Positions 3,267 to 28,186 of a DNA stretch of 64,000 bases are shown here, piece by piece (the first letter of the stretch is position 1; the number at the start of each line of letters is the position of its first letter). This DNA comes from Propionispora vibrioides (GTDB lineage Bacteria > Bacillota > Negativicutes > Propionisporales > Propionisporaceae). A program made the translations under genes and the position numbers. The DNA is taken from NCBI RefSeq assembly GCF_900110485.1, contig NZ_FODY01000001.1:186001-250000 (forward strand), written 5' to 3'. The notes under the pieces were generated by a model. The model made no database searches. It was not told the DNA's origin and was given only the letters and a program-made list of their open reading frames with translations.

Positions 3267-5370
3267 TCTTATACTTCCTCTTCTCTAATTCTTTTAGCGT
3301 ATCCGGATATTCGATTCGGGTGTGAAACATACTGGATAAGACCCGGATAAACACATCACCGATGATATTCAAATCCTTTAAGGTCAAACTGCACTCGTCC
3401 AATTGTCCGTCGTGCAGCCTTTCCCTGATGATCTTTCTAACCATAGCCTCAATCCGGTTCAAGTTGGGTTTGGCTATGGAACGAACCGCGGCTTCGCAGC
3501 AATCAGCCAGCATGATAAGCGCCGCCTCCTTCGTCTGCGGTCGCGGCCCCTCATAACGAAAGTCAGCTTCCACGATGCATTCACTATGATCCGTTTCGGT
3601 AGCCCTGTTATAAAAGTATGATACCAACGTTGTCCCGTGGTGCTGCTGGACAATATCAGTGATCATTTGCGGTATTTTATAGTCCCGGCATAAATCAATT
3701 CCGTCTTTAATATGGGAGGTTACAATTAAAGTGCTTAAAGAGGGGGCAATTTTTTCATGGGGATTATCAATTCCCACTTGATTTTCAACAAAAAAGTAAG
3801 GACGTTTGATTTTGCCGATATCGTGGAAATAAGCACCAACCCTGACGACCACCGGATCGGCACCAATACTGTCAGCAGCCGTTTCCGCCAGATTACCGAC
3901 TAAAACACTGTGGTGATAGGTCCCGGGAGCATCCAGCAGCAACCGTTGCAACAGCGGATGGTTAGGCCTGGTCAGGTCCAGCAGCTTGATGCTGGTAGTG
4001 ATATTAAAGGCATGCTCCAGGTAAGGCAATAACCCAATAGTAATGACGGCCGATACAATCCCGCTGACTACTCCCTGCAAGCCTTGAAACAAGACCTGCG
4101 AGGGATTAACCTGTTTGATAAAACCGGTAGCCAGAATGACAATGAAATTAACCGCCGCAATCCAAACACCCGTTTTAGTCAAACTATAGCCGTGAGTCAC
4201 CTTAGACACGCTATATACGCCAACCATGCTGCCAATTAGAGCAACCGATACGGCACGCAAATCCTGGTCTACAATCACACCAAACAGCATGGCTGCCGTC
4301 ACCCCGGTGAGCAACCCGACCCTGGCATCAATAAGAATAGACGCCAAGAGAGCACCTGCCGCCACAGGAGCTACGAAATCAGAGTAATAATGGGCCGTCT
4401 TACCTAACAGCAAGGTTAACAGAATGATCAGCCCCAGTAAGGTCAACTGCAAATCATTTTCATATACCCCGCGCGAAAATTTATACAAATACCCCATGAC
4501 CAGCAGCATGACCAGCAGCACAAACACAGTCAGACCGAAAACCCTGATCTCACCAACCTGTCCTTTGTATAAGCCAAGCTCTTCCATCGCCTGGATCTGG
4601 TCGGCCGTAACCACATCGCCCTTTCTGACTAGAATTTGTCCTTGCTTTACCGTCTCCCGCACTGGTTCAATACTATTTAACGCCGACTGTTTACGCTTGT
4701 CGGTTTCCCGTATGTTCAAAATAAAATTAGGCTTTAACAGTTGCTGCGTGATGCCGGCAACGGCCGCCTCCATATGCTTGTTAAGCCCCAATTCCTCTGT
4801 TTCGATTACAATATGCTTTCTGGCAAGGTCAATATCATCATCGCGGATTCCACGCTGAAAATATTTGTGCAGCAACAATTTGACCTGTTCCTCCGCTTTT
4901 ACCAAATCCGCCTCATTAAGTTGAACCAACCCGGCCACCGCCGTTTGTGGCAGGCTGACCGGCATATTGGCGGAAATCTTCCCCATCTTCCCTTCATCCG
5001 TTTTTAACGAGGCATCAGCCAGTGTCGAACGGGCTATCAGGAAGATGGCCGCTACACTCTCATCCGCCTTGGCCATGATCGAAACGTCCAGATCATACAC
5101 GTTGGCAATACTGGAAAGTACCTCTTCTTCCAAATGCTTGGTTTTTACCGTATCCACATAAGAAACGGTACGGGGAGCAAGAATATCGCGGTCACTAACT
5201 TGTCCAATTTGGAAAGAAACTTTATCGGAAACAAAATCGGCAGATAAAACGACGGTAAATACGAAAAAAAACGCCAATCCAAGTACCATACGACGAATGA
5301 TGGGTTTTGCATATGTACTCGTTGGTTGAAGAAAAAAATCCCGTAACTTGCTATTATTAAGTGACAGCAT
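3175..5370 (-). CDS. pgpH: PgpH-type 7TMR-HD cyclic-di-AMP phosphodiesterase
   Basis: This family hydrolyses cyclic di-AMP to pApA at the inner face of the membrane. The 731-residue protein has one N-terminal membrane helix, a large extracellular 7TMR-HDED segment, a seven-helix membrane block and a cytosolic HD domain with H516-D517 in YFHDIGK and a later HHGTT. The start at 5370 is chosen because GGAGTG lies 8 bases upstream; a longer reading frame to 5421 would run into phoH. The last about 40 residues are lysine/serine-rich and poorly conserved, and run 92 bases into ybeY. It belongs to the phoH-pgpH-ybeY-era block. Confidence 0.95.
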   Translation of the reverse strand: MLSLNNSKLRDFFLQPTSTYAKPIIRRMVLGLAFFFVFTVVLSADFVSDKVSFQIGQVSDRDILAPRTVSYVDTVKTKHLEEEVLSSIANVYDLDVSIMAKADESVAAIFLIARSTLADASLKTDEGKMGKISANMPVSLPQTAVAGLVQLNEADLVKAEEQVKLLLHKYFQRGIRDDDIDLARKHIVIETEELGLNKHMEAAVAGITQQLLKPNFILNIRETDKRKQSALNSIEPVRETVKQGQILVRKGDVVTADQIQAMEELGLYKGQVGEIRVFGLTVFVLLVMLLVMGYLYKFSRGVYENDLQLTLLGLIILLTLLLGKTAHYYSDFVAPVAAGALLASILIDARVGLLTGVTAAMLFGVIVDQDLRAVSVALIGSMVGVYSVSKVTHGYSLTKTGVWIAAVNFIVILATGFIKQVNPSQVLFQGLQGVVSGIVSAVITIGLLPYLEHAFNITTSIKLLDLTRPNHPLLQRLLLDAPGTYHHSVLVGNLAETAADSIGADPVVVRVGAYFHDIGKIKRPYFFVENQVGIDNPHEKIAPSLSTLIVTSHIKDGIDLCRDYKIPQMITDIVQQHHGTTLVSYFYNRATETDHSECIVEADFRYEGPRPQTKEAALIMLADCCEAAVRSIAKPNLNRIEAMVRKIIRERLHDGQLDECSLTLKDLNIIGDVFIRVLSSMFHTRIEYPDTLKELEKRKYKNGSNNKQSPAKDESNGPTGEHRDGCAAKSS

Positions 5371-5386
5371 GTGTTTCACTCCAATA

Positions 5387-6376
5387 TCAGGTTTTGCCCT
5401 CTCCCATCTCATACCTGTCATACGCTTTCACAATCCGGCTTACTATCTCATGACGGACAACATCACCTTCCGTCAGGTTCACCAACGTAATTCCGTCAAC
5501 ATTGCGGAATATTTCTTGCGCCTGCTTAAGACCGGAAACCGAGTTATGCGGCAAATCAATCTGCGTGATATCGCCTGTTACAACAATCTTAGAGCCAAAG
5601 CCCATTCTGGTTAAAAACATTTTCATTTGCTGCGGCGTCGTATTTTGCGCCTCATCCAATATAATAAAAGAATCATTTAGCGTACGGCCGCGCATATACG
5701 CCAGCGGTGCCACCTCAATGATATTTTTCGCCATGTATTTTTGAAAGGTTTCGTAACCTAAAATATCCTGCAAGGCATCATACAAAGGCCTTAAATAAGG
5801 GTCGATCTTTTCTTGCAAGTCTCCCGGCAAAAAGCCAAGTTTCTCACCGGCCTCAATGGCGGGACGGGTCAAAATAATTCTTTCCACCTCTTTATGTTTT
5901 AAGGAAAATACTGCCAGAGCAACAGCAAGATAAGTTTTCCCGGTTCCGGCAGGTCCTATTCCAAATGTTATATAATTGCTTCTTATCGCCTCGATATAAG
6001 TATGCTGTCCGATGGTTTTCGGCCTGATTTGCCGTCCCCTCGCCGTAGTCATAATCGTGTCGCCAAACATCCTGTGCAAAGATTCCAGCTTTTTATCCTT
6101 CAGCATACGGATGGTATATTTTATATCATGAGCGGACAGGGTATTGCCTAAACGGCAAAGATACCTTAGTTCTTCGAACAAATTGAAAATAAGCCCGGTT
6201 TCCTGTTCATCGCCCCGGATGACCACTTCGTCACCACGGGCAGTAATTTTATCCGGAAAGTAGGAATTGATAATACGAAGATTTTCATCATGCCGTCCTA
6301 ATATGGCAAGCGCCTCCGTAATATCCGTAAATTGAAAACGTTTTTCCGTTACTCCTGTTTCATGTACTGACTGCAA
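5387..6376 (-). CDS. phoH: PhoH-like ATPase (YbeZ type)
   Basis: A 329-residue P-loop ATPase of the PhoH/YbeZ family, found with YbeY in most bacteria and linked to RNA metabolism. Walker A is GPAGTGKT at about residues 141-148; Walker B with DEAQNTTPQQMKMFLTR follows. The frame extends back to a TTG at 6406, but that would place the strong AAGGAGG inside the coding region. The TTG at 6376 lies 10 bases after this site and is the better start, which also removes the overlap with yqfD. The operon is yqfC-yqfD-phoH-pgpH, as in Bacillus. Confidence 0.94.
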   Translation of the reverse strand: MQSVHETGVTEKRFQFTDITEALAILGRHDENLRIINSYFPDKITARGDEVVIRGDEQETGLIFNLFEELRYLCRLGNTLSAHDIKYTIRMLKDKKLESLHRMFGDTIMTTARGRQIRPKTIGQHTYIEAIRSNYITFGIGPAGTGKTYLAVALAVFSLKHKEVERIILTRPAIEAGEKLGFLPGDLQEKIDPYLRPLYDALQDILGYETFQKYMAKNIIEVAPLAYMRGRTLNDSFIILDEAQNTTPQQMKMFLTRMGFGSKIVVTGDITQIDLPHNSVSGLKQAQEIFRNVDGITLVNLTEGDVVRHEIVSRIVKAYDRYEMGEGKT

Positions 6377-17025: not shown

Positions 17026-18162
17026 TCATACGCCAAACACATCTTTTACTTTTTTAAAAAAGTTTTTCTGCTCCGGGTTTATATTCTCGCCGCCCAACTT
17101 GGCAAACTCCTGCAATAAAGTACGCTGGCGCTCATTCAGCTTCTGCGGGGTCAGAACTTTAACCCGGACATGCTGATCGCCACGGCCATTGCCACGCAAG
17201 TGGGGAATCCCCTTTTCCTTTAGACGGAATATCGTTCCCGACTGAGTTCCTTCAGGAATACGCAGTTTTACCTTGCCGTCCAGGGTAGGCACATCAATTT
17301 CATCACCCAGTGAAGCTTGCACAAAGCTGATCGGCACTTCACAAATTACCTCACTGCCTTCACGGGCAAACAATTTATGCGGTTTTACGAAAATATACAC
17401 ATATAAATCACCCGGCGGTCCCTTGCGAACACCGGCTTCACCCTCGCGGGCGATCCGCAGCCGGGAGCCGTTGTCTACGCCGGACGGAACTTTGATTTTA
17501 ATCTTTCGTTTGTTGCGCACTTTACCACGGCCATGGCAATCCCGGCAAGGCGTCTGAACGATTCTACCCTCACCGTTGCAACGGTCACAGGTCCGCACAT
17601 TGACCATCCGACCAAAGGGCGTGTTCTGCATCACCTGAACTTGCCCGGTTCCTTTACACTGCGGGCAAACTTCCGCCTGTGTTCCTGGCGCCGCCCCGGA
17701 ACCCTTACAGGTATCACAATCCTCAGTCCGCGGAATCTGTACTTCTCGCTCCACGCCAAACGCTGCTTCTTCAAAGGATATTTCTAAATCATACCGCAGG
17801 TCGGCACCTTTTTCCGGACCGGGCTGGCGTCCGCCAAACCCAGACTGGCCGCCAAAAAACATATCAAAAATATCTGAGAAGCCACCACTGCCGCCAAACC
17901 CGAAATCCCCGCCAGCATTCCCTCCCCGGGCGCCATCAAACGCAGCATGACCAAACTGGTCATACTGCGCTTTGCGTTGGGGGTCAGATAACACTTCATA
18001 AGCTTCATTAATTTCTTTAAATTTAGCTTCCGCTTCTTGTGGATTATCACGATTGACGTCAGGATGGTATTTGCGGGCCAGTTTACGAAAAGCCTTTTTT
18101 ATTTCGTCATCCGATGCCGTTCTAGGCACACCCAGCAATTCATAATAGTCTTGTTTACTCAC
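17026..18162 (-). CDS. dnaJ: Chaperone protein DnaJ
   Basis: Co-chaperone that delivers substrates to DnaK and stimulates its ATPase. The 378-residue protein has the J domain with HPD (KYHPDVNRD, about residue 33), a G/F-rich linker (about residues 75-115), four zinc-finger repeats of CxxCxGxG type from CDTCKGSG to CRDCHGRG, and the C-terminal substrate-binding domain. It is thus a full type I DnaJ. It starts with GTG at 18162, 36 bases after dnaK, following AGGATGG. Confidence 0.98.
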
Positions 18163-18198: not shown

Positions 18199-20043
18199 TT
18201 ATTTTTTATCTTCGTCCACTACTTTGTATTCGGCATCCACAATCTTTTCATCCTGTCCGGCACCACCTGCCGCACCGGCTCCCGGAGCTTGAGTGCCAGC
18301 CTCAGCTGCATCGGCCTGGCTGTAGGCAGCTGATGTCATCTCATACAACGGTTTGGTCAACTCTTCCGTGTCAGCTTTAATTTGTTCAATATCAGTACCT
18401 TTCAGCGTTTCTTTTAATTTGTCGGCTGCTTTTTGCACTTTTTCAACCAAAGCCTTATCAGCTTTATCGCCCATATCCTTAATCGTTTTTTCGGCTTGAT
18501 ATACTAAGGAATCAGCATTATTGCGCACTTCCACTTCTTCTTTGCGCTTTTTGTCTTCTGCCGCATGCGCTTCAGCCTCGTTGACCATGCGTTCAATATC
18601 GTCCTTGCTCATACCGCCGGAAGCAGTGATCGTGATTTTCTGTTCCTTACCGGTTCCCATATCTTTCGCCGAAACATGGACAATACCGTTGGCGTCAATA
18701 TCAAAAGCAACTTCAATGCGAGGCACCCCACGCGGTGCCGGCGGAATATCTGAGAGTTCAAAACGGCCCAGTGTTTTATTGTATGCGGCCATTTCCCGCT
18801 CACCCTGTAGCACATGAATGTCTACAGAAGGCTGATTGTCGGCTGCCGTAGAGAAGACCTGACTTTTTCTGGTCGGAATAGTAGTATTGCGGTCAATAAT
18901 TTTAGTAAACACACCGCCTAGCGTCTCAATGCCCAAAGACAGCGGCGTAACATCGAGGAGCAGGACGTCTTTTACATCACCGACTAAGACACCGGCCTGG
19001 ATAGCGGCGCCAACAGCCACACACTCGTCAGGGTTTACACCACGGTGTGGTTCTTTGCCCAAAAAGCGTTTGATCGCTTCCTGCACAGCCGGGATACGGC
19101 TGGAGCCGCCTACCAAAATGACCTTATTAATATCGCTCGGCTGCAAACCGGCATCAGACATAGCCTGACGGGTTGGTCCCATGGTAGCTTCCACCAGATC
19201 GGCAGTTAATTCATCAAATTTAGCTCTAGTTAAATTGATGTCCAGATGTTTAGGGCCGGTTTGGTCCGCTGTAATAAACGGCAGATTGATATTGGTCGTC
19301 AACACGCCGGAAAGTTCAATTTTTGCTTTTTCTGCAGCTTCTCTGAGCCGCTGGGCAGCCATCCGGTCCTGCGATAAATCCACACCGGATTCTTTCTTGA
19401 ATTCACTAACCAGCCAGTTCATGATTCGTTCATCAAAGTCATCGCCGCCTAAACGGTTATTACCGTTAGTAGCCTTTACCTCAAACACACCGTCGCCTAA
19501 TTCGAGTATGGACACGTCAAAAGTACCGCCGCCCAAGTCGAATACCAAAATCGTGTGATCTTCGCCTTTGTCTAGCCCATAAGCTAATGCCGCCGCCGTC
19601 GGTTCGTTGATAATCCGGAGCACTTCCAAACCGGCAATGGTTCCGGCATCTTTCGTAGCCTGGCGCTGGCTGTCGCTAAAATAAGCCGGCACGGTAATAA
19701 CAGCCTGCGTTACCGTTTCTCCCAGATACGCCTCGGCATCCCCTTTAAGTTTTTGCAGCACCATGGCCGAGATTTCCTGGGGAGTATAATCTTTATCGTC
19801 AATACGGACTTTATGCGCCGTTCCCATGTGGCGTTTAATGGAGCTAATCGTGCGATCAGGGTTGGATACGGCCTGACGTTTTGCCAACTGACCGACCAAA
19901 CGCTCTCCGGTTTTCGAAAAGCCGACAACCGAGGGAGTAATCCGGCTGCCTTCCGCATTAGCGATAACCACCGGTTCGCCGCCTTCCATCACGGCAACCA
20001 CTGAGTTTGTAGTACCAAGGTCTATTCCAATAACTTTTCCCAT
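18199..20043 (-). CDS. dnaK: Chaperone protein DnaK (Hsp70)
   Basis: The 614-residue ATP-dependent chaperone shows [13 protein letters not shown] at the start, [12 protein letters not shown] and [11 protein letters not shown] in the nucleotide-binding domain, the linker [13 protein letters not shown], the substrate-binding beta domain and a helical lid that ends in an alanine/glycine-rich tail before [10 protein letters not shown]. As in other Gram-positive-type DnaK proteins, a segment of the nucleotide-binding domain is missing compared with proteobacterial DnaK. Start ATG follows AGGAGG. Operon member hrcA-chaperonin-grpE-dnaK-dnaJ. Confidence 0.98.
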
Positions 20044-20078: not shown

Positions 20079-20660
20079 TTAATTGCTTACCACTTTTACC
20101 ATGCTGGGACGAATCACTTTGCCCCGGACGCTGTAACCTTTTTGCAATTCCTCGGCAATTGTCCCGTCCGGCTGCTCCGGATCTTCTACCCGCATAACTG
20201 CTTCATGCTGCTGCGGGTCGAATGGCTTGCCAACCGCCTCAATAGCAGTCAATCCAACTTTATCCATTACACCGGCAAACTGACGGTAAATCATTTGAAC
20301 ACCAGCCAGTACGCTTGCCGCATCCTGCGCGGCAGCACTTTGCAGGGCCCGCTCGAAGTTATCGATGACCGGTAGAATCTCTACCAGTATATTCTGGGCA
20401 ACAATATTGGATAATTCCTCTTTCTCCTGACGGGTTCGGCGCTTAAAATTTTCAAAATCCGCCTGCAAACGTTTAAAACGATCGATTTGTTCATTGACCA
20501 ATTGATTCTTTTCTTCCACCAGAGCCAAAAGGCGCTCCACTTCCGTTTCACTGGCTGCGCCAGCCCCGGCAGCTTCAGCACCGTCAACGGCAGCTTCCTT
20601 TTCTTCTGCATCCAAAACCAGTTCCTGCTCGCAGCTATTGGCTTCCTTATTTTCCGACAT
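20079..20660 (-). CDS. grpE: Nucleotide exchange factor GrpE
   Basis: GrpE releases ADP from DnaK. The 193-residue protein has an acidic, alanine-rich N-terminal region, a long coiled coil (LLALVEEKNQLVNEQIDRFKRLQADFENFKRR region, about residues 45-85) and the C-terminal beta domain with GKPFDPQQHEAVMRVED. The frame extends to a GTG at 20672, but GAGGTG lies 9 bases before the ATG at 20660, which is preferred. It lies between the archaeal-like chaperonin gene and dnaK. Confidence 0.97.
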   Translation of the reverse strand: MSENKEANSCEQELVLDAEEKEAAVDGAEAAGAGAASETEVERLLALVEEKNQLVNEQIDRFKRLQADFENFKRRTRQEKEELSNIVAQNILVEILPVIDNFERALQSAAAQDAASVLAGVQMIYRQFAGVMDKVGLTAIEAVGKPFDPQQHEAVMRVEDPEQPDGTIAEELQKGYSVRGKVIRPSMVKVVSN

Positions 20661-20693
20661 GTATGATTTCACCTCACCTATATAGTAGCCTAC

Positions 20694-22262
20694 TCAAAAA
20701 TCGGATGGTCCCTGATCTTTAGAGGCGGCGTTATCCTCCCGCTTCTTGATAATGGTATCAATCCGCAAAATAGCTATAGCCACTTCACCGGCCGCCTTAA
20801 CGGCATGAATCTTTACGGGCACGGGGTCTACAACACCTAATGACAGCATATCGGCAATCAGGCCTGTTTCACAATCAACAGCCAGGCAGTTCTGGCTGGT
20901 TCCGGCCTGCGCGGCCACTACTTCCTCCACCTTTTCCAGTGGATTATAGCCGGCATTCTCCACAATTTGGGCCAGTGGGTGCTTCAGTGCATTTACTACA
21001 CAATCCACACCATAAACAGCCATCCCCTTGACCCGGGTACGCGCCTGTTCCACAGCGCGGGCTACAGCCACTTCAATCGCACCACCGCCGGGAACATACC
21101 CACCGATTATTGCCGCCTGCACACTGGAGGCCGCATCCTTGGCAATTCGCTCCCTTTCTCCCGCAACCTCCTGGGTTGATGCGCCGACCAAAATTGTTGC
21201 CATCGGTTTCCCCTGGCCGCCAACAACGCGTAGCTGCTCCAGTTTTTCATCTTCATAAACCTTCTCGGCATATCCAATATATTTAACAAGCTCACCCGCT
21301 TCTTTTTTCAAACCGGTCCGCTTAATCATTTTAGCTCCGGTATGATCGGCCGCCCGACGCAGTTCTTTTGCCGCAATCCGCTGCACCACCAAAACCCCTG
21401 CGTCGGTCAGTATTTCTTCAGCATCGGCGTGAACACCACGATCAACTAGAACTACATTAATATTTTGCTCGACAATTTTTAATATATTGGCACGAAATTC
21501 ATTCTGCAAATCAAGGTACCGCCTAAATCCCGCCTCGGTCCCCAAAGCCTCGTCACCGATATTTTCCGGTTCAAGGGCATCATCAATAATCAGGATTCTC
21601 GCATTGTCCATGGCTTGCGGCATTTCTTTATTCATCCGTTCTTTGTCAATGACAACCCCCATAAACACTTCATTGTCGGCTCCAACCTTTGCCGTAATAA
21701 TTTCCGACAGTCTAAAATGTTTATCCTGTAGCTTGGGCGAACCGATTAAACGGGCCGCCTGAACTACCAGTCGCGCAATATCTTCGTATTCGCGGCCGGC
21801 AACCATGGCAATATTATGCAAAATCGGCTGTTCCAGTTTTTCTATCGGTAAGCTTCGCTGCGCCAATTGTTCAACCGCATATTGGACGCCAAATCGGATT
21901 CCCTCAATAATCCGGGCTACAGGCACACCCCGCAGGACCTGATTTACTCCTTCGGCCACCAAAGCGCCGGCAATCAGCGTAGCCGTTGTCGTTCCATCGC
22001 CCACTTCTTCCTGCTGAGCCTTGGCAATATTAATCAGCATTTTAGCCGCCGGATGATTAACATCCATTTTATCCAAAATGGTGACACCGTCATTGGTAAT
22101 GATCACACCGCCTGCCCGGTCCACCAGCATGGTATCCAGCCCCTTGGGACCTATGGTTCCCTCGACAGCCGCCGTAACAGCCCGGACGGCGTTGGAGTTA
22201 GTTACCAGGGCGGTCAACCGTTCATCAACGTCTGAACCACTCCCGGCCTGCTTTACATTCAT
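20694..22262 (-). CDS. Archaeal-like (group III) chaperonin, Cpn60/TCP-1 family
   Basis: A 522-residue thermosome/CCT-like chaperonin, not a GroEL. It shows the group II pattern ATP-site motifs GTIGPKGLDTMLVD, NDGVTILDKMDVNHPAAKM and VGDGTTTATLIAG, then VVLVDRGVHADAEEIL and GGYVPGGGAIEVAVA, with no GGM-rich tail. Bacterial group III chaperonins of this kind were described in Carboxydothermus hydrogenoformans and some other Bacillota, where they also sit in the dnaK operon; they fold proteins without a GroES-like lid protein. Here it lies between hrcA and grpE, with a strong AGGAGG before the ATG, and should share the CIRCE/HrcA control. The DNA between hrcA and this gene holds two hairpins. 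Confidence 0.95.
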   Translation of the reverse strand: MNVKQAGSGSDVDERLTALVTNSNAVRAVTAAVEGTIGPKGLDTMLVDRAGGVIITNDGVTILDKMDVNHPAAKMLINIAKAQQEEVGDGTTTATLIAGALVAEGVNQVLRGVPVARIIEGIRFGVQYAVEQLAQRSLPIEKLEQPILHNIAMVAGREYEDIARLVVQAARLIGSPKLQDKHFRLSEIITAKVGADNEVFMGVVIDKERMNKEMPQAMDNARILIIDDALEPENIGDEALGTEAGFRRYLDLQNEFRANILKIVEQNINVVLVDRGVHADAEEILTDAGVLVVQRIAAKELRRAADHTGAKMIKRTGLKKEAGELVKYIGYAEKVYEDEKLEQLRVVGGQGKPMATILVGASTQEVAGERERIAKDAASSVQAAIIGGYVPGGGAIEVAVARAVEQARTRVKGMAVYGVDCVVNALKHPLAQIVENAGYNPLEKVEEVVAAQAGTSQNCLAVDCETGLIADMLSLGVVDPVPVKIHAVKAAGEVAIAILRIDTIIKKREDNAASKDQGPSDF

Positions 22263-22283
22263 CGTTCGTCCTCCTATGTATAT

Positions 22284-22326
22284 GGCGGAACAGCCGCCAT
22301 CATACTGGTCTACGACAGACCAGTAT
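22284..22326 (-). other. Two tandem hairpins between hrcA and the chaperonin gene
   Basis: In the 72-base gap a 10-bp perfect stem ATACTGGTCT/AGACCAGTAT (22302-22326, 5-base loop) is followed on the minus strand by a 5-bp GGCGG/CCGCC stem (22284-22298). Neither has a T tract. They could protect or process the downstream mRNA, so that chaperones are made in excess over HrcA. Function inferred from position only. Confidence 0.5.
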
Positions 22327-22334
22327 CATACAAA

Positions 22335-23363
22335 TTACACCTTGTATTTCTTCAATATTTCACCTAAATGGCTGTGCATAAAATCAAGAATGCTGATAAT
22401 CTTTCGATATTCCATCCGTGTCGGTCCTAAGACAGCCACGGTACCGACAATCTGACCGTCCAGGCGATAAGTGGCCTGCACAACACTGCAATCCTGCATT
22501 CCGGTATACTTATTTTCCTGACCAATAGTAATGATAACACCGTCGTCTTCTTTCTTTTGCAAGATATCGCAGAGCAAACGCTCTTCTTCCAGCATGGTCA
22601 ACAGACCTTTGATTTTGTCAAGGTTACGAAACTCCGGCTGATTCAGCATTTGCGTAGTGCCACCCAGATACACCTTTTCATTTTTCTCGGCAAAGAGTGC
22701 TTGTTTGATCATAAGCAAAGCCGTATCCAAAAATTCTTCGCTCGGCAAAAGCTCCTGTTTGATTTGAGTCAGCAGTGAAGTCTGAATCCGGTCAAAAGGC
22801 AATCCTGCCAGACGACTGTTAATGCCTTCGGCAATTCTTTGCAAATCCTTTAATGAGGTTCCCGGCGGCGTATTCATAATCTTGTTTTCCACAAAGCCGG
22901 TATCGGTTACTACCACCAAAATCACGCGACGTTCGTCCAGCGGCAGAAACTGAATATATTTAAAGACATATTGCGAAAGCTGCGGCGCCAATACCATGGA
23001 AATATTTCGGGTCATCCGGGAAAGAATCTTCGCCGTTTCCTGAAATACTTCTTCAATACGCTGCACCTTAGCATGATACCAGTTATCAATCAAACTAATC
23101 TCACGTTCCGATATGGTCTGCGGTTCAATTAAACAATCTACATAAAAGCGGTATCCCTTAGCCGATGGGATTCGCCCTGCTGAGGTATGGGGCTGTTCAA
23201 TGTAGCCTAATAGCTCAAGATCGGCCATTTCATTCCGGATAGTGGCCGGACTTATTCCCAAGCCATATTTGCGAGCAATTGTTCGTGAGCCAATAGGTTC
23301 AGCGGTGGAAATATAATCATCAATGATTGCCTGCAAAATTTTACGTTTACGCTCATCTAACAT
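22335..23363 (-). CDS. hrcA: Heat-inducible transcription repressor HrcA
   Basis: HrcA binds CIRCE operators and represses class I heat-shock genes. The 342-residue protein starts LDERKRKILQAIIDDYISTAEPIGSRTIA, with a winged-helix DNA-binding domain containing SPATIRNEMADLE, followed by the GAF-like and C-terminal domains; VVTDTGFVENK and GPTRMEYRKII are typical. The frame extends to 23396, but that region is the CIRCE itself; GGTGGAG precedes the ATG at 23363, so this start is chosen. First gene of the operon and expected to regulate its own promoter. Confidence 0.97.
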   Translation of the reverse strand: MLDERKRKILQAIIDDYISTAEPIGSRTIARKYGLGISPATIRNEMADLELLGYIEQPHTSAGRIPSAKGYRFYVDCLIEPQTISEREISLIDNWYHAKVQRIEEVFQETAKILSRMTRNISMVLAPQLSQYVFKYIQFLPLDERRVILVVVTDTGFVENKIMNTPPGTSLKDLQRIAEGINSRLAGLPFDRIQTSLLTQIKQELLPSEEFLDTALLMIKQALFAEKNEKVYLGGTTQMLNQPEFRNLDKIKGLLTMLEEERLLCDILQKKEDDGVIITIGQENKYTGMQDCSVVQATYRLDGQIVGTVAVLGPTRMEYRKIISILDFMHSHLGEILKKYKV

Positions 23364-23379
23364 AACTCCACCCCCATTG

Positions 23380-23406
23380 TTAGCACTCAGTCTCATAGAG
23401 TGCTAA
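23380..23406 (-). promoter_or_regulatory. CIRCE operator (HrcA binding site)
   Basis: A perfect consensus: TTAGCACTC (23380-23388), 9-base spacer, GAGTGCTAA (23398-23406). It lies between the -10 at 23418 and the hrcA start at 23363, where HrcA binding would block transcription of the whole operon. Only this one CIRCE was seen in the window. Confidence 0.97.
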
Positions 23407-23417
23407 TATCTATTAAA

Positions 23418-23446
23418 AAAATACCACTCCTTACGCCAACTGTCAA
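23418..23446 (-). promoter_or_regulatory. Sigma-A promoter of the hrcA operon
   Basis: Perfect TTGACA (23441-23446) and TATTTT (23418-23423) with a 17-base spacer on the minus strand, ending 12 bases before the CIRCE. The -35 begins 10 bases after the edge of element C1. Confidence 0.8.
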
Positions 23447-27115: not shown

Positions 27116-28186
27116 TTACTGAAATTTATTTTCCGCAATAATCTCGGCCAGCACATCACCCAGCATTTCCATACTGCGTGCAGCCTCTTCCACACTGTTC
27201 TCCTGACAGCCAACCTCCAACAACAAGGCGTGAGGATGGAGATGCTGATTATAGCGCCACTCGACTAACTGGATCCCCCGCGATAATCCGGGGTAATGCT
27301 GGTTCAGCTTAGCATCAATCAGTTTGGCAAAAGCGTGATTTTCCTGCCAATGGGGCTGCTCCAGACCCGGTTGCCCCTGCGCCACCAGGATCATAATCCG
27401 GGCAGCCGGCTGTCCGTTGATCATGGCTGTTGTGTATTCCCGTTTTTGCGCGTCCCGGTGTATATCAAAAATCATTTGTATGGACGGATTATCCTCCAGC
27501 ATTTTTTTTGCCGTAATTTCCGAAGGTCCATAGGCTTTCATAAAACTGGGATAATCATGAATAGTGGTGCTTTGGACGGCGGCAATATTGTATTTTTCCA
27601 TTTGCTTGACTAATGCCTGTCCTACCTGGATGATATCGCCGGTCTGTCCGCCCGGCTTATGGTCCACCCCCGAGGTGGGGATATAAGACTCCGCCGTGTG
27701 AGTATGATAGATACCCACTAAAGGCTTGCTTTTATCCAGTTCTGTCTTCCCTGCGGCCTTGGAAAAGAGCGCCACTCGCTCCCCGCCAGTCATCGGTTTT
27801 GAACTTTTGATGCTTGCCACGACAGGTATTTCCGAATTGATCACCGAGCGCATATCGCGTAAATCAACAGACGTTAACATCATGAAAAAGTTGGATAATA
27901 GGCTAGCCGGGGTAAACTGACTTGTTCCGTTCTGTTGCTTTGCCGCCAATTCCAGTCCCGGCACACCGTAAAACAAGATCTCCTGCCATTGCGGCCAGGC
28001 GGTAAATGTCTCCTGCTCGATAGGGTAGAATTTGTTTACTGCTACAGGCACAGCCGTATCCTGGCTGAAAGCCTGTACTACTGCCAACGTACACAATAGC
28101 AAAATAACTGCGCCGACCCAAAAATAGGACTTCTTCATTTGCCGCTTATTCGTCGTACGATGCCGCTGCCGCCTTGATAACATCAT
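27116..28186 (-). CDS. spoIIP: Stage II sporulation protein P (SpoIIP)
   Basis: SpoIIP is a membrane-anchored amidase/endopeptidase that works with SpoIID and SpoIIM to thin septal peptidoglycan during engulfment. The 356-residue protein has an N-terminal membrane helix (about residues 21-40) and a C-terminal SpoIIP domain with VGIYHTHTAESY, MIFDIHRDAQKR and LLEVGCQENSVEEA, including the metal-binding His and Glu positions. Two adjacent ATG codons follow GGAGG; the second has the better spacing. A candidate sigma-E promoter is at 28299-28328. The 320 bases upstream hold this promoter, element A3 and otherwise nothing that I recognise. Confidence 0.96.
   Translation of the reverse strand: MMLSRRQRHRTTNKRQMKKSYFWVGAVILLLCTLAVVQAFSQDTAVPVAVNKFYPIEQETFTAWPQWQEILFYGVPGLELAAKQQNGTSQFTPASLLSNFFMMLTSVDLRDMRSVINSEIPVVASIKSSKPMTGGERVALFSKAAGKTELDKSKPLVGIYHTHTAESYIPTSGVDHKPGGQTGDIIQVGQALVKQMEKYNIAAVQSTTIHDYPSFMKAYGPSEITAKKMLEDNPSIQMIFDIHRDAQKREYTTAMINGQPAARIMILVAQGQPGLEQPHWQENHAFAKLIDAKLNQHYPGLSRGIQLVEWRYNQHLHPHALLLEVGCQENSVEEAARSMEMLGDVLAEIIAENKFQ

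Follow-up and report, generated by a model that had tools for sequence, protein, structure and literature searches.

A chaperonin gene within the hrcA operon

The hrcA heat-shock operon of Propionispora vibrioides carries a chaperonin gene, cpn3, between hrcA and grpE, which raises the questions of which chaperonin group its product belongs to, how it came to this place and what it might do beside GroEL and DnaK. We analysed the window, a 64,000-nucleotide stretch of contig NZ_FODY01000001.1 (positions 186,001 to 250,000), together with the source genome assembly (4.43 Mb) and sampled relatives. The features that bear on these questions are as follows.

17026–18162, minus strand: dnaJ (PF01556, PF00226, PF00684)
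18199–20043, minus strand: dnaK (PF00012, 848 bits)
20079–20672, minus strand: grpE (PF01025, 157 bits)
20694–22262, minus strand: Group III chaperonin gene cpn3, 522 amino acids (PF00118, 362 bits; PDB 5x9u, 446 bits; residues, tree and fold)
22263–22334, minus strand: hrcA–cpn3 spacer with two predicted hairpins (−27.5 kcal/mol) and no T-run
22335–23363, minus strand: hrcA, with its likely true start at 23363 (TIGR00331, 358 bits; start read from the sequence)
23380–23406, no strand assigned: perfect CIRCE operator, the predicted HrcA binding site (sequence match, conserved in relatives)
23418–23446, minus strand: sigma-A-like promoter TTGACA-17-TATTTT with a TG before the −10 (extended −10), 10 of 12 consensus matches

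The cpn3 reading frame is intact, with an ATG start, the ribosome-binding site AGGAGG and no internal stops, and its product aligned end to end to the Cpn60_TCP1 family. On one strand, hrcA, cpn3, grpE, dnaK, dnaJ and prmA follow one another, with a hemW-like gene before hrcA, and cpn3 is the second gene of a putatively HrcA-controlled operon. Gaps of 72 nt (hrcA–cpn3) and 21 nt (cpn3–grpE) separate cpn3 from its neighbours, and no intrinsic terminator was found in either. A preliminary description of this locus had placed the operon under a perfect CIRCE, and we located this element at 23380–23406 as TTAGCACTC-N9-GAGTGCTAA, in a search for which 0.02 matches were expected by chance with three mismatches permitted. 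As listed, hrcA spans 22335–23396, with a start that falls within the CIRCE; the likelier start is the ATG at 23363 (MLDERKRK), preceded by GGGGGTGGAG. The promoter, which ends 11 nt upstream of the CIRCE, is the top sigma-A-like match in a region whose total of such promoter-like matches is not above chance.

Hairpins of differing sequence occur in the hrcA–cpn3 spacer of a number of relatives and are absent from several, for example Sporomusa, so that we rejected a conserved RNA element and claim none; an Rfam search of the region gave no match, and the hairpins could possibly act in mRNA processing or stability. The window also contains spoIIP (27116–28186), which supports the earlier description of the host lineage as sporulating.

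Sequence, fold and tree place Cpn3 in Group III

The top PDB sequence match of Cpn3 was 9rwq, a resurrected Group III-like ancestor (642 bits) that is labelled 'Ancestral Group II' in the database output and whose sequence aligns as Group III, followed by Ch-CPN of Carboxydothermus hydrogenoformans (5x9u, 446 bits) and natural thermosomes (about 233 bits or less). NCBIfam thermosome models reached about 297 bits, under their cut-offs, and GroEL models gave weak, piecemeal matches (TIGR02348, 137 bits against a cut-off of 582), none of them full-length and above cut-off.

Individual residues were then compared in an alignment that comprised 108 Group III rows together with Ch-CPN, seven thermosomes from archaea and six GroELs. 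The ATPase residues in the GDGTTT loop and the two catalytic aspartates, whose loss would have spoken against the preliminary assignment, are all kept (D58, D89, T91, T93 and D376, corresponding to Ch-CPN positions 56, 87, 89, 91 and 373). The Group III-specific arginine is R157, equivalent to Ch-CPN position 155, which touches the gamma-phosphate; this column holds Arg in 108/108 Group III rows and Lys in six of the seven archaeal rows. Hydrophobic residues of the built-in lid are retained (L240, F246, Y249 and F256), the four-residue lid insertion of Group II is absent (a 3+1 residue gap relative to Mm-cpn), and the Group II nucleotide-sensing loop with its Lys was not found in the aligned Cpn3 sequence, which is six columns shorter than Mm-cpn between two intermediate-domain helices, as is Ch-CPN. 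These residue, loop and lid features are the marks that separate Group III (PMC5635000).

An AlphaFold model of Cpn3 (pLDDT 86) showed the equatorial, intermediate and apical chaperonin fold, and its best Foldseek matches in the PDB were Ch-CPN in both states (5x9v/5x9u, TM 0.88–0.90), ahead of thermosomes (TM about 0.80–0.84). In a tree of 72 rows, which includes only seven archaeal rows and contains long branches, among them the one to GroEL, Groups I, II and III each occupied one side of a branch; cpn3 fell outside the GroELs and within a Group III clade of 61 rows (SH-aLRT 89). From sequence and predicted fold we assign cpn3 to Group III, as neither a GroEL nor a member of the thermosomes, in keeping with the preliminary reading of a complete Group III gene.

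Cpn3 and Ch-CPN (PDB 5x9u/5x9v; PMC5635000) have in common their operon position, built-in lid, Group III arginine, catalytic residues and fold, as well as the lack of a nucleotide-sensing loop. Their sequences are about 45% identical, Ch-CPN itself sitting on a family branch that evolves fast, and Cpn3 has N211 and C464 where Ch-CPN has Trp208 and Phe461. The archaeal thermosomes of Group II, such as Mm-cpn, resemble Cpn3 in the built-in lid and the chaperonin fold but differ in possessing the nucleotide-sensing loop with Lys and the four-residue lid insertion, at about 30% identity. Other close known systems come from Thermosinus, a member of the Sporomusaceae, and from the genus Propionispora itself. 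The Thermosinus carboxydivorans protein WP_007289467.1 is, like Cpn3, a Group III chaperonin, and among modern proteins it has been named as standing closest to the reconstructed ancestor of Group III (PMC12696368). Propionispora sp. 2/2-37 carries its homologue (L012) in the same operon, with 72–73% identity to Cpn3 and 28% of residues differing, in a genome with two GroEL genes; the chaperonin of the same-genus genome G003 is identical to it.

Constraint and rate of change

Measured against two genus-mates, cpn3 gave dN/dS values of 0.08 and 0.11, the second being rough at a dS near 1.9. The protein evolves faster than DnaK, DnaJ and GroEL: its mean identity to class-mates is 68%, as against 87% for DnaK, and GroEL is 87–90% identical to that of six relatives. 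Such faster change, combined with repeated loss of the gene among relatives (see below), agrees with a folding machine that is auxiliary and not essential, and the contribution of Cpn3 may for these reasons be small or conditional.

The same rate and losses would also suit a protein that is Group III by descent but has lost its folding activity, serving as a holdase only or decaying, and homologues of that appearance exist: in three distant relatives (L049, L054 and L111) the general-base aspartate is replaced by alanine (TNAGVTIL compared with TNDGVTIL), and in the one-contig genome G018 the gene (L110) appears broken by a TGA and frame loss after about residue 350, possibly through a sequencing error. 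In cpn3 itself, however, all catalytic residues are intact and the dN/dS values are low, and we regard loss of activity here as unlikely, if the best placed of the alternatives. A very fast homologue (L101 in G306, 46% identity) lies in a Negativicutes operon that is otherwise normal, in a genome of 1.7 Mb, and keeps the equivalents of Asp373 and Arg155.

Distribution and inheritance of cpn3

Relatives of cpn3 were present in 102 of the 299 sampled genomes of the phylum and in 58 of 300 sampled genomes of the class, the latter a slight undercount. The preliminary description had limited such genes to a small set of Bacillota; this understates a family of which 195 members had been counted by 2017, all of them in the DnaK operon with one exception (PMC5635000). 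In all 35 named relatives, CIRCE, hrcA and cpn3 occur in the same order, the CIRCE at the same place with zero mismatches; grpE-dnaK-dnaJ follows in 32 of these and dnaJ alone in three. Other loci showed the same CIRCE-hrcA-cpn3 order wherever contig ends leave it visible. GroEL was found in every one of 66 genomes tested, 65 of which have cpn3. Where relatives lack the gene, hrcA is directly followed by grpE and the CIRCE is kept, including in G001, from the same family, and G304, the sister of a carrier.

Several apparent exceptions were set aside. G319 and G323 are not gene-free, cpn3 there being cut off by contig ends, and flags for a TAG inside the gene in G322, G346 and G354 were rejected, as the aligned stretch is open. 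A match labelled Actinobacteria (L037) groups with Peptococcaceae L033 for both cpn3 and the neighbouring genes, and we therefore take it to be a likely mis-binned contig and not a true actinobacterial cpn3.

The variant operon hrcA-cpn3-dnaJ occurs in L031, L032 and L035, whose dnaK and grpE lie at other sites of the genome. In L035, a Symbiobacterium metagenome-assembled genome, an insert of about 859 bp (5142–6000) splits cpn3 behind codon 38, within the conserved GPKG motif; the insert gave no Rfam intron match, and its 237-residue reading frame no Pfam match.

We next compared the cpn3 tree with a tree of hrcA, dnaK and dnaJ. Distances in the two were correlated at 0.68, or 0.76 without the fast row L101, a level reached in 0 of 999 permutations, and 19 of 44 splits were in common. 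Negativicutes stood together in the cpn3 tree, except for L101 on its very long branch and with the inclusion of L026, their sister in the operon tree. Mapping presence and absence of cpn3 on the operon tree required seven changes. The broad agreement between gene and operon trees and the direct hrcA-grpE junction in gene-free relatives speak for vertical inheritance of cpn3 in the host lineage, with repeated loss in relatives.

These data bear on the transfer questions that the preliminary description had raised for the host lineage. A recent horizontal acquisition, in which an archaeal thermosome gene landed by chance in the heat-shock operon, would account for the archaeal-like family matches of cpn3, but would leave unexplained why the gene occupies the same locus in every relative and largely follows the tree of its operon. 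Its base composition (GC 51%, GC3 50%) is moreover similar to that of neighbouring genes, and identity to natural archaeal proteins is about 32% at best; we thus judge recent transfer very improbable. Plasmid and phage collections contained distant relatives only, below 60% identity. Whether the first bacterial Group III copy came from archaea is debated (PMC5635000, PMC12696368), the former paper mentioning deep relatives in Thaumarchaeota, and any such transfer would be far older.

Because the survey shows Group III to be common and at one locus, we lean slightly towards a view in which Group III already belonged to the hrcA operon when Negativicutes and the sampled clostridial-type lineages still shared an ancestor, was passed on vertically from that early time and was lost cleanly many times from between hrcA and grpE. 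If this is true, much of Bacillota would have Group III as an ancestral trait, and scattered transfers would not be its source.

CIRCE sites elsewhere in the genome

Exactly two Cpn60/TCP-1 genes are present in the source genome, cpn3 and groEL, the latter with groES at a separate locus downstream of its own perfect CIRCE. That cpn3 is itself a diverged GroEL paralogue, a reading to which the shared superfamily and the weak GroEL model matches lend some colour, is hardly credible given its built-in lid and Group III residues, its separation in tree and fold, and this real GroEL with groES elsewhere.

The third perfect CIRCE of the genome (G000:C10:42037-42063; L199 3038–3064) lies about 36 bp before htpG (Hsp90, PF00183), a pairing also seen in at least 10 sampled relatives of the class, and, judged from these predicted sites, the HrcA regulon here seems to include Hsp90 (HtpG). 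We rejected queT as the target of this CIRCE, which precedes htpG on the other strand. Two tandem c-di-GMP-I riboswitch aptamers lie downstream of queT in the source genome (L005 2355–2698).

Other genes in relatives are preceded by CIRCE elements, including one for a ClpB-like protein (L191) and one for an HtrA-like protease (L205, G003). In the class-mates L194, L198 and L207, a CIRCE with no or one mismatch precedes a gene for a similar protein of about 333–365 residues, which looks like a mannooligosaccharide phosphorylase-type glycosidase and may be an unexpected HrcA target. The genus-mate contig G003:C16 (94 kb; L204–L206) has four perfect CIRCE elements, and a second groES-groEL lies near two of these.

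A proposed role beside DnaK and GroEL

Taken together, cpn3 very probably encodes an HrcA-regulated Group III auxiliary folding ring that works beside DnaK and GroEL. By analogy with homologues, its product would form an ATP-driven ring chamber with a built-in lid and no need for GroES; assembly as an 8+8 double ring, ATPase and folding activity, and control by HrcA are likewise expected from homologues. In the proposed scheme, hrcA, cpn3, grpE, dnaK and dnaJ would be co-transcribed from the single sigma-A-type promoter, which HrcA would shut off at the CIRCE. HrcA needs GroEL for its activity and thereby senses misfolded protein. Misfolded protein that occupies GroEL would leave HrcA inactive and derepress the heat-shock set, such that GroESL, DnaK-DnaJ-GrpE and the Group III ring would be made together, plus HtpG in this genome.

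The Group III ring would most likely be an auxiliary chamber for clients released by DnaK, parallel to GroEL, although a hand-over of clients from DnaK is speculative. A link between DnaK and Group III, suggested by the operon, has been proposed earlier (PMC5220055, PMC5635000); the three loci with hrcA-cpn3-dnaJ and no grpE-dnaK indicate that a strict tie to DnaK does not hold throughout. The tie to the HrcA heat-shock regulon advanced in the preliminary description stands as regards the CIRCE and the operon, but it is not new, having been published (PMC5904260): that paper, citing Techtmann and Robb 2010, states that HrcA regulates the Type I as well as the Type III genes of the Firmicutes concerned.

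Thus cpn3 is an unexceptional representative of a family already known, and the finding reads an established system correctly and adds the genome of a spore-forming member of the Negativicutes to the Group III family. A host that can be cultured and that has GroEL as well as a Group III ring under a common regulator would offer a practical place to test the role of the second ring, and would also be suited to asking whether this ring takes DnaK clients.
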